44,461 nt of DNA. Origin: Burkholderiaceae bacterium (GTDB lineage: Bacteria > Pseudomonadota > Gammaproteobacteria > Burkholderiales > Burkholderiaceae_E). Below the pieces are notes generated by a model, which saw only the letters and a program-made list of their open reading frames with translations, was not told the DNA's origin and did not search any database. The translations under genes were made by a program, and so were the position numbers. Positions 38,607 through 41,912 of this stretch are shown piece after piece. The DNA lies in contig JAHBZV010000023.1 in assembly GCA_019635275.1 (NCBI GenBank), positions 1 through 44,461 on the forward strand, in the 5' to 3' direction. Position 1 is the first letter of the stretch; every line of letters starts with the position of its first letter.

Positions 38607-39392
38607 ATGGTTCCCGTCCTGTGCTTCGACATCGAGACCGTGCCCGACGTGGCGGGCCTGCGGGTCATCCACGGGCTGGAAGACACGATCGACGACGCCA
38701 CGGTGGCGGAGCAGGCCTTCGCGCGCCGGCGCGAGCAGACCGGCAGCGATTTCCTGCCGCTGCACCTGCACCGCGTGGTCGCGATCGGCGCGTTGCTGCG
38801 CACCGACGAGGGACTGAAGGTGCGCTGCATCGGCGAGCCGGACACCGACGAGGAGAAGCTCGTCAGGGGCTTCTACCAGCTCGTCGATCGCCACACGCCG
38901 CAGCTCGTGTCGTGGAACGGCGGCGGCTTCGACCTGCAGGTGCTTCAATACCGCGCGCTGGTGCACGGCGTGCAGGCCGCGCGCTACTGGGAGCAGGGCG
39001 ACGAGGACCGCGAGTTCAAGTGGAACAACTACCTCGGCCGCTACCACTCGCGCCATCTCGACCTGATGGACGTGCTGGCGCTGTACACGCCGCGCGCGAA
39101 TGCGCCGCTCGACGAGCTGGCGAAGCTGTGCGGATTCCCGGGCAAGCTCGGCATGGACGGCTCGCAGGTCTGGCCGGCCTACCGTGACGGCCGCCTGCCC
39201 GAGATCCGCGCCTATTGCGAGACCGACGTGGCGAACACCTGGCTGATGTTCTGCAGGTTCCAGCGGATGCGCGGGCTCTGGACGCCCGAGCACTACCGGC
39301 GCGAGGTCGCGCTGCTGCGCGAGACGCTGCAGGGGCAGGCCGGGCAGGCGCCCCATTGGCGCGAGTTCCTGCAAGCGTGGCCGGCGGCGTGA
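38607..39392 (+). CDS. Predicted PolB-like 3'-5' exonuclease
   Basis: 261 residues. DEDD-type nuclease: '[11 protein letters not shown]' (Asp8, Glu10), '[19 protein letters not shown]' (ExoII Asp), '[11 protein letters not shown]' and '[13 protein letters not shown]' (ExoIII). It fits the bacterial family of stand-alone PolB-like exonucleases found beside rlmD in betaproteobacteria. Cytoplasmic; in vivo substrate unknown. ATG at 38607 is 19 nt after nlpD; its stop overlaps the rlmD GTG. Confidence 0.9.
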
Positions 39393-40759
39393 GCGCGGCC
39401 GGCGAGCCGCTGACGCTGGACATCGATTCGCTCGATCTCGAGGCGAACGGCGTCGCGCATCACGAGGGCAAGGTGGTGTTCGTGCGCGGCGCGTTGCCCG
39501 GCGAGCGGGTGCGCGCGACGCTGGTGCGGCGCAAGCCGCGCTTCGACGTGGCGCAGACGGTCGAGGTGCTGCGCGAATCGCCTTCGCGGGTGGTGCCGCG
39601 GTGCCCTCATTTCGGCGTCTGCGGCGGCTGCTCGATGCAGCACCTGGAACCGGGCGCGCAACTGGCGATCAAGCAGCGCGCGCTCGAAGACCAGCTCTGG
39701 CACATCGGCAAGGTGCGACCCGGGTCGATCCTGAGGCCACTCGCCGGCCCGGTCTGGGGCTATCGCTATCGCGCCCGCCTCTCGGTGCGTCACGTGCCGA
39801 AGAAGGGCGGCGTGCTGGTCGGCTTCCACGAGCGCGGATCGAGCTACGTGGCCGACATGCGCGAGTGCCACGTGCTGCCGCCGCGCGTGTCGGACCTGCT
39901 CGTCCCGCTGCGCGAGCTCGTGGGCGGGCTGAGCCTGCGCGAGCGCCTGCCGCAGGTCGAAGTGGCGGTGGGCGAGCACGATGCAGGCCTGCTGGTGGCG
40001 CTGGTGCTGCGCGTGCTCGACGCGCCGGGCGCGCAGGACCGATCGCGCCTGCTGGAGTTCGCGGCCCGCGAGCACGTAGAGCTGTGGCTGCAGCCGAAGG
40101 GGCCGGATTCGATCGAGTTGTTGTGCACCGCCGACGGCCGGCCGGCGGGCAGCGACGGCGATTCGCAGCTCGCGTACCGGCTGCGCGAGTTCGACGTCGC
40201 GATGCCGTTTCGGCCGACCGACTTCACGCAGGTCAACCATCGCATCAACGAGGTGCTGGTTTCGCGCGCGATTCGGCTGCTCGGGCCGCAGCCGGAGGAT
40301 CGGGTCGCCGACCTGTTCTGCGGGCTGGGCAACTTCTCGCTGCCGCTGGCGCGGCGCGCCCGCGAAGTGGTCGGGGTCGAGGGCAGCGAGACGCTGGTGC
40401 GGCGCGCGCAGCACAACGCGCTCCTCAACGGACTGGGCGATCGGACGACGTTCCGCGCCGCGAACCTGTTCGACGAGGGAGCGGCCGGGTTTCGCGCGCT
40501 CGGTCGCTTCGACCGGGTGCTCATCGATCCGCCGCGCGAAGGCGCGCTCGAAGTGGCCAAGGCACTCGCCGCCGACCCCGGCAAGCCGGTGCGGGTGGTC
40601 TACGTGTCGTGCAACCCCGCGACGCTGGCACGCGATGCGGCGATCCTGGTGCACCAGGGCGGGTTTGCGATGACAGCGGCGGGGGCGGTGGACATGTTTC
40701 CGCAGACTTCGCACGTCGAGTCCATGGCGGTGTTCGAGCCGTCCACCGGGTCGGCGTAG
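39389..40759 (+). CDS. rlmD: 23S rRNA (uracil-1939-C5)-methyltransferase
   Basis: 456 residues. An N-terminal TRAM-like domain (1-65) is followed by the 4Fe-4S ligands Cys72, Cys78, Cys81 ('[14 protein letters not shown]') and Cys160 ('MRECHVLP'). Then come the '[13 protein letters not shown]' segment, SAM motif '[16 protein letters not shown]', '[12 protein letters not shown]' and the nucleophile loop '[11 protein letters not shown]'. All RlmD/RumA hallmarks are intact. GTG at 39389 overlaps the exonuclease stop (GTGA). The stop codon lies 3 nt before the long palindrome. Confidence 0.95.
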
Positions 40760-40762
40760 GCG

Positions 40763-40892
40763 GCATTCGGGCGCCGGTGGCGCGGGGCGCGTGCCGGGCC
40801 TGGCCTCGCGGCCGCCGCTTACGGGGGTTCGGCCACGCGCGTAACGCCTCGCGCCGGGCGGGCGCGGCGAGGCCCGGCCCGCTGCGCGGCCC
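40763..40892 (+). repeat. Left arm of the palindrome
   Basis: 130 bp starting GCATTCGGGCGCCGGTGG. Within it a segment begins TTACGGGGG and ends CGCGTAA, so the arm itself contains imperfect TTACG...CGTAA ends. It starts 3 nt after the rlmD stop codon. Confidence 0.88.
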
Positions 40893-41022
40893 ACGACTGC
40901 GGCCCCGCTTCGCGGGGCTTCCCTCGCCCACCTCGCAGGCTTGCACCCGCGGCCGACGGGCGCTGCGCGCCCGACGGCGTCGGGTCCCGCAAGCCTGCTT
41001 TCGGTGGCGCTCGGCTTGTCGA

Positions 41023-41152
41023 GGGCCGCACAGCGGGCCGGGCCTCGCCGCGCCCGCCCGGCGCGAGGCGTTACGCGCGTGGCCGAACCCCCGTAAGCGG
41101 CGGCCGCGAGGCCAGGCCCGGCACGCGCCCCGCGCCACCGGCCCCCGAATGC
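41023..41152 (-). repeat. Right arm of the palindrome (inverted copy)
   Basis: Reverse complement of the left arm at 128 of 130 positions. The pairing ends at 41152, just 2 nt before the terminator hairpin of the BI-1 gene, suggesting that the element lies between the rlmD stop and a pre-existing terminator. Confidence 0.88.
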
Positions 41153-41201: not shown

Positions 41202-41912
41202 TCAGTCGCGGTCGCCGCCCAGGACGCCGAGCAGCATCAGCAGGTTGCTGAACACGTTGTAGATGCTCAGGTAGACCGACAGCGTCGCGCTGACGTAGTT
41301 GGTTTCGCCGCCGTTCACCACGCGCTGCAGGTCGTACAGGATGAAGGCCGAAAAGATCAGCACGGCCAGCGTGGAAATCGTGAGCGCGAGCGCGGGCATC
41401 TGCAGCCAGATGTTGGCGATGGCGGCGACGAACACCACCATGAAGCCGATGAACAGCCACTTGCCCATGCCGCTGAAATCGCGCTTCGAGACGGTTGCGA
41501 CGGTGGCCATGACGGCGAAGATCGCCGCGGTGCCTCCGAATGCGGTCATGATCAGGCTGGCGCCGTTCGAGAAGCCGAGCACCGCGCCGACGAGCCGCGA
41601 CAGCATCAGGCCCATGAAGAAGGTGAAGCCGAGCAGCAGGGCGACGCCGATGCCGCTGTTCTTGAAGCGCTCGATCGCGTAGAAGAAGCCGAACGCGACG
41701 CCGAGGAACACCAGCAGGCCGACGAACGGCGAGCCGGCGAAGAACCGGAAGCCGGTCTGCACGCCGATCCAGGCGCCCAGCACCGTGGGAACCATCGACA
41801 GCGCGAGCAGCCAGTAGGTGTTGCGGAGAACCCGGTTACGGCTGGCGGTCTCGAGGACGCCTCCCGCTGCGCCGAACCCGCGCGTGCCCAGTTGGTTTTG
41901 CTCGTATGCCAT
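41202..41912 (-). CDS. Bax inhibitor-1/YccA family membrane protein
   Basis: 236 residues with seven TM segments and the BI-1 signature: 'RNTYWLLALSMVPTVLGAWIG', 'LMLSRLVGAVLGFSNGASLIMTAFGGTAAIFAVMATVA', 'DFSGMGKWLFIGFMVVFVAAIANIWLQ' and 'AFILYDLQRVVNGGETNYVSATLSVYLSIYNVFSNLLMLLG', which carries the C-terminal Asp pair region of this family. Inner membrane; relatives interact with FtsH or leak calcium. GGAGG 8 nt upstream fixes the ATG at 41912. Confidence 0.94.
   Translation of the reverse strand: MAYEQNQLGTRGFGAAGGVLETASRNRVLRNTYWLLALSMVPTVLGAWIGVQTGFRFFAGSPFVGLLVFLGVAFGFFYAIERFKNSGIGVALLLGFTFFMGLMLSRLVGAVLGFSNGASLIMTAFGGTAAIFAVMATVATVSKRDFSGMGKWLFIGFMVVFVAAIANIWLQMPALALTISTLAVLIFSAFILYDLQRVVNGGETNYVSATLSVYLSIYNVFSNLLMLLGVLGGDRD

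Follow-up and report, generated by a model that had tools for sequence, protein, structure and literature searches.

Near-perfect palindromes of at least 100 bp are expected to be destroyed by SbcCD. The window, by which we mean the whole 44,461-nt stretch of DNA analysed, holds a 390-bp palindrome, which raises the question of how bacteria retain such structures.

The palindrome between rlmD and the BI-1 gene

The palindrome, first noticed in a sequence-only reading of the window, is real: its arms (40763–40892 and 41023–41152) pair without gaps at 128 of 130 positions, the two exceptions being positions 40772 and 40885 of the left arm. When the 390-nt stretch was shuffled 200 times with its dinucleotides preserved, the highest inverted match over 130 nt was 69, and an inverted-repeat search of the window returned 135-nt arms at 98% flanking 120 nt. 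Folded as single-stranded DNA, the 390 nt reached −275.9 kcal/mol (z = −28), a stability equalled by none of 100 shuffles, and the centre formed several hairpins, as had been claimed for it. The same reading had the palindrome filling the gap between two genes, and it does occupy the whole of it, with rlmD (39215–40759, + strand, NCBIfam equivalog) upstream in the orientation of the core described below and the convergent Bax1-I (BI-1/YccA-like) gene (41202–41912, − strand, family match) on the other side. The terminator claimed for the BI-1 gene 2 nt past the palindrome stood only in part: a GC-rich hairpin is present, followed on the + strand by no more than TTT, and a terminator scan requiring five T in eight positions found none at the window element.

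A conserved core between copy-specific arms

A search of the window's own genome with the whole stretch returned the stretch itself, its inverse and one more place, the latter at 81% over the centre alone. This second class A copy has 133-nt arms that are 96% complementary and a 120-nt centre as in the window copy. The arms of the two copies are unrelated in sequence, and the palindrome is therefore not a pair of inverted copies of one dispersed repeat, as had been proposed; the repeat unit is the centre, and the arms are specific to each copy. A dispersed family nevertheless exists, as had been suspected, since the centre recurs in the window's own genome and in relatives. When the own genome and 100 others were searched, 31 of the 101 gave matches, and the strong ones, over the centre, came from the same genus and one other genus (G059). 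Inspection of about 50 copies showed a conserved core of about 120 nt and arms that differ between copies. In copies not cut by a contig end, the arms were about 31–190 nt long with a GC content of 75–89%; most were near-perfect, and some paired at only about 80–90%. Alignment of the arms of 42 copies, a set that includes one doubtful copy (L069), yielded 3893 paired columns with 265 mismatches and 279 gap columns.

In the window, the left arm (40763–40896, + strand) is copy-specific, with about 85% GC and no own-genome match at E ≤ 0.001 other than its own inverse. The conserved class A core of 124 nt (40897–41020, + strand, oriented as model R1) was delimited by the second genomic copy, model matches and covariation, and the right arm (41021–41152, + strand), the inverse of the left, by arm alignment. 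A second class of cores, class B, has the same core base as class A but a different apical domain, AACTCG-hairpin-CTCARACA.

By motif only, the window's own genome yielded two further class-B-like elements (L477:316–342 and L478:1266–1293, on contigs C82 and C83); the arms of the first match at 174 of 203 columns. In six other loci (L033, L060, L061, L063, L064 and L071), the contig ends inside or right beside the core. Since contigs stop at cores, draft genomes probably undercount the elements.

Structure of the core

Several helices of the window core could be assigned on the + strand. Side hairpin P2 (GCCCCGC-TTC-GCGGGGC, 40902–40918) has all six of its six helix pairs changed on both sides among the cores. 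It is followed by a covarying stem, CCACC (40928–40932) with GGTGG (41003–41007), which spans 40928–41007, and by an inner variable stem at 40935–40998, GCAGGCTTGC (40935–40944) with GCAAGCCTGC (40989–40998), in which nine of ten pairs changed on both sides. The conserved ACCCG (40945–40949) and CGGGT (40981–40985), recognised by reading of the cores and by covariation, delimit the segment 40945–40985 and enclose an apical hairpin (40957–40973).

Both classes covary, which bears out the suggestion of a structured element. Among 39 class A cores, 16 of 30 predicted pairs were changed on both sides. In larger alignments, which were fitted to the models so that their counts lean towards the structures, 70 distinct class A rows had 98.0% of 2058 cells paired and 24 of 30 pairs changing on both sides, and 81 distinct rows of distant class B copies had 89.3% of 2786 cells paired. 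The covariation score was 0.356 for class A (shuffled 0.101, slid ≤0.054) and 0.579 for distant class B (shuffled 0.147, slid ≤0.069).

Wobble pairs bear on whether the structure acts as RNA or DNA. Within the genus, neither the cores (7 G.T versus 11 A.C) nor the arms of the 42 copies (45 versus 63) had an excess of G.T, as is expected where pairs change by copying. The distant copies had 124 G.T against 82 A.C; 55 of these A.C cells came from one non-pairing column pair, without which A.C fell to 27. This excess, in an alignment fitted to the pairing model, speaks for RNA folding on the core strand in the distant copies. The core most likely acts as folded RNA of the core-strand sequence, and we would guess that it serves as a structured transcript or a stable RNA end in gene-end regions.

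Distribution of the two core classes

The class A core model gave 99 matches in 13 of the 18 genomes of the genus, the weaker ones being mostly class B on reading. In the family it matched 17 of 74 genomes, including four from other genera. The class B model matched at least 28 of 399 genomes of the order with eight candidates scored per genome. Deeper scoring of 18 chosen genomes gave matches at E ≤ 0.05 in 14, 12 of the 18 having been picked as earlier matches; each of those 12 held 4–23 matches. The distant copies inspected had mostly short outer stems, with the exception of L341 (40/41), and hairpins and a purine-rich lead preceded their cores.

In a class-wide sample, the motif was present in 176 of 369 genomes and the reversed control also in many, and only genomes with a large excess over this control were counted (for instance G531, 19 + 18 versus 1 + 0; G570, 14 + 19 versus 1 + 1; G756, 15 + 15 versus 1 + 0). 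The layout of lead hairpin and core recurred when six loci with the motif in other orders (L429, L434, L435, L436, L480 and L481) were read. The class B family is found across the Burkholderiales and, as judged by motif and reading, in other Gammaproteobacteria. One long-armed element (L178:113–167) lies on a contig filed under a Pirellulales MAG and resembles Burkholderiales copies; its placement there may be a binning error.

Arm turnover between species and copying into genes

At sites shared between species, the best local alignment of the two arms within a copy was at 94–100% in all 12 copies. Left arms compared between species were no better than shuffles in five of nine comparisons (phoH G009/G014; locus 1 G000 versus G005 and G000 versus G014; locus 2 minus; locus 3). 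In the other four they were still recognisable (phoH G005/G009 and G005/G014; locus 1 G005/G014, where 71 of 73 columns match; locus 2 plus), which makes turnover uneven among sites. In the three of seven comparisons that could be walked, 71 substitutions affected both arms and 11 a single arm; in the remaining four the paired extent was not walkable and contributed almost no columns. The near identity of the arms had been attributed to recent origin or gene conversion, and a conversion-like homogenisation agrees with these results, as both-arm changes outnumber one-arm changes and the arms stay self-complementary despite their turnover. The arms show the pattern that defines a template-switch (quasipalindrome) tract, in which one arm is copied in inverse from the other and both change jointly.

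The copying extends into genes. Between the convergent phoH and PALP genes of G009, G005 and G014 lies an element through which the coding end of phoH has been carried into its unrelated PALP neighbour, over 36 nt in G009, 15 nt in G005 and 8 nt in G014. PhoH ended in SRLADFATDAL or a close variant in all 16 genomes inspected, and this conservation identifies phoH as the donor. In G009, PALP ends in SRLADYATDAL, the last 11 residues of PhoH, including a Y that is found in the PhoH of G009 and in no other member of the 16-genome set. The PALP of G005 ends in NRTDAL, the copied part being its last four residues, and in G014 only CGCTCTGA was copied, past the PALP stop. Six PALP relatives elsewhere have other C-termini. 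Similarly, a GGDEF protein and a flavoprotein flanking L054 (G008) both end in ATA* through 13 shared nucleotides. By rough CDS calls from a codon-score script, the palindrome runs at least 10 nt into a called CDS in 26 of 81 measurable copies, L054 among them.

Template switching as the probable mechanism

We consider it probable that the palindrome derives from an ancient structured element whose hairpin seeds template switching, and that the arms were lengthened in this genus. The ancient element would be the core, which combines an outer stem with the side hairpin P2 and either a class A or a class B apical domain. In the genus, its outer stem would have been extended to arms of about 30–190 bp. 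The core hairpin would serve as a foldback point for DNA synthesis, at which the polymerase changes strand across the core and copies one flank in inverted form over its counterpart. Such switching would keep the arms near-identical while altering both jointly, and would let the palindrome spread outward, sometimes into coding ends. At inverted repeats, template switching has been described as homogenising arms, changing proteins and maintaining RNA stems (PMC8604942, PMC8794818). The genomes compared document the family itself, its covariation, the copy-specific arms, their joint turnover at several sites and the copying of gene ends; that the copying occurs by replication template switching rather than by another DNA conversion, we infer.

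Long arms may be tolerated because canonical SbcD was not detected, which would imply that low SbcCD activity permits them. The sequence-only reading had pointed to SbcCD-type nucleases, and the question was worth asking: an SbcD model gave no match over its cut-off in the 18 genomes of the genus, with weak matches in six. A match over the cut-off was also missing in 127 of 150 genomes sampled from the order, so absence of SbcD is insufficient on its own to account for the long arms here and would be permissive at most; we rejected its loss as sole cause.

In its widest form, our reading is a tentative one: a class-wide family of structured RNA/DNA hairpins, absent from Rfam, might spread itself as convergent doublets, and its copies in this genus might drive flank-to-flank copying, directional and repeated, by which a non-coding element would continually rewrite the C-termini of neighbouring proteins. 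It would link a widespread structured element missing from Rfam to a visible mutational engine, and the orthologous sites of the genus form a natural series that records arm copying and how far it extends into genes. With its covarying stems and convergent doublets, the class-wide core is a candidate new RNA family.

Possible mobility and site history

Template switching alone leaves the spread of core types between loci within genomes unexplained, and of the 24 orthologous pairs, 11 consisted of cores that each had, within the same genome, a paralogue closer than the orthologue. A non-autonomous mobile element of MITE or REPIN type is the alternative that fares best, although we regard it as unlikely; some transposase or reverse transcriptase would mobilise the convergent core pair in trans, and the arms would form on insertion. 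The element is indeed multi-copy, intergenic and patchy, with core types grouped within genomes. Among 32 adjacent pairs within 900 bp, 27 were convergent, five had the same direction and none was divergent; the convergent pairs lay between non-convergent genes in 12 cases and convergent genes in 12, with three unknown. Single copies were common besides these doublets.

The rlmD/BI-1 site is itself consistent with mobility. The two genes are adjacent in 16 of the 18 genomes of the genus, and, on reading of the gaps, only the window's genome has a class A element there, while the gap in G002 holds a class-B-like convergent pair. In the close relative G006, the gap after rlmD (L200) contains a short coreless hairpin, similar at its outer ends to the window palindrome and possibly a remnant or the ancestral state. 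From the differing gap contents among relatives it follows that the site gains, loses or exchanges elements. Against a mobile element stand the arms, which differ between copies, with neither a shared terminal repeat nor a target duplication established, and the 24 between-genome orthologous pairs, which indicate long residence. The ORFs in five wider pairs (L413, L115, L048, L391 and L388) resembled ordinary genes by eye, an SDR and ordinary proteins with no transposase recognised, and an autonomous transposon between paired cores was rejected on this basis. Plasmid searches with the element gave no match apart from a weak one to a Streptomyces plasmid, a phage search gave none, and two pattern matches in viral contigs had neither core nor arms; on these searches, we rejected a phage or plasmid origin.

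Pairing selection, gene orientation and assembly

Template switching as the source of the arm identity competes with selection for pairing in a long stem of RNA (or a cruciform), in which ordinary compensatory substitutions would maintain complementarity. The strong covariation of the core and the excess of G.U over A.C in distant copies are what such selection would leave, but the arms and core of the genus lack a wobble excess, and at some sites whole arms of 30–130 columns have been swapped and still pair at 94–100%. Nor would selection for pairing place phoH coding DNA in a neighbour's gene with the conserved PhoH tail as its source, and we judge this explanation improbable.

Slightly less probable still is the view that what lies in the gap is a terminator or mRNA-stabilising hairpin of the ordinary kind that chanced to lengthen. 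We classified 147 copies (67 of 73 and 64 of 96 model matches, and 16 class B), leaving out repeat places in overlapping loci. Among the 135 with called genes on both sides (12 more lacked a neighbour), 50 lay in convergent gaps and only nine between divergent genes; this scarcity, the stop codon that often closely precedes the element and the GC-rich hairpin would suit such a role. In tandem contexts, however, orientation was random (37 co-oriented, 39 opposed), which counts against an obligatory 3'UTR role and weakened an early hint of a strict 3'UTR element. The 39 copies opposed to both tandem genes, the scan without a T-run terminator and the conserved 120-nt core with its covarying internal structure likewise speak against an ordinary hairpin.

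An inverted misjoin during assembly is a very unlikely source of the window palindrome, even though several contigs terminate in or close to a core, because the window arms differ at two positions, the 18 separate assemblies yielded core matches in 13 cases (two of which have 3–4 contigs), arms are present in those inspected, and further genomes of the genus share the arm–core architecture, that of the named strain Zeimonas arvi CC-CFT501 among them.

Comparison with known systems

The arms are copy-specific, whereas MITEs have terminal inverted repeats common to their copies. Integron attC sites carry conserved R'/R'' boxes at their ends and form cassette arrays; in the element the conserved part is the centre. 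REP and REPIN units are palindromes of 20–40 nt with a GTAG/CGTC tag; the unit found here has about 120 nt plus arms, and by-eye inspection of the core ends found no conserved GTAG/CGTC tag. The element does form inverted doublets as REPINs do (27 of 32 adjacent pairs convergent, none divergent). REP/BIME/REPIN palindromes with RAYT transposases, as described in PMC3733652, are likewise intergenic, multi-copy and palindromic with convergent doublets, but the element is much longer, its core bears a side hairpin and its arms are unrelated between copies. Quasipalindrome correction and short template-switch mutations, as described in PMC8794818 and PMC8604942, share with the element the overwriting of one arm by the other, possible coding changes, and stems that are created and kept perfect. 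Unlike those tracts, the element is anchored on a conserved multi-copy structured core, its arms attain about 190 nt and it extends by as much as 36 nt into the coding end of a neighbour. The bacterial stem-loop families of PMC2267715, some of them in bordetellae, are dispersed and intergenic too; the likeness is one of description, and one of these families may be identical with the element. Mitochondrial palindromes of Nematomorpha (PMC6649704) comprise perfect inverted repeats of up to 284 bp that enter coding sequence; they differ in being mitochondrial and inside genes, and the abstract of that paper mentions no shared core. Searches of openly licensed PMC papers on repeat families, toxic small RNAs and template switching brought up no description of the element.

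With Rfam 15 covariance models, the window gave two tRNAs only, and 24 element loci scanned at a relaxed threshold gave nothing above the gathering score on an element. RF02278, a beta-proteobacterial toxic small RNA, was rejected as the element's identity, being absent from the Rfam matches at the loci scanned. A twister-sister match in L101 was also dismissed, as it scored below the gathering score and, where it overlapped the element, lay on the other strand. L352:2285–2654 gave a match resembling the cspA thermoregulator (75.6 bits; gathering score 78). Upstream of the core at L389 (2761–2888, − strand), the lead hairpin consists of TACTTTCTTTTG, a loop and CAAAAGAAAGTA; base pairing between the loop, TTCGCC, and a GGCGA further on would give a possible pseudoknot.
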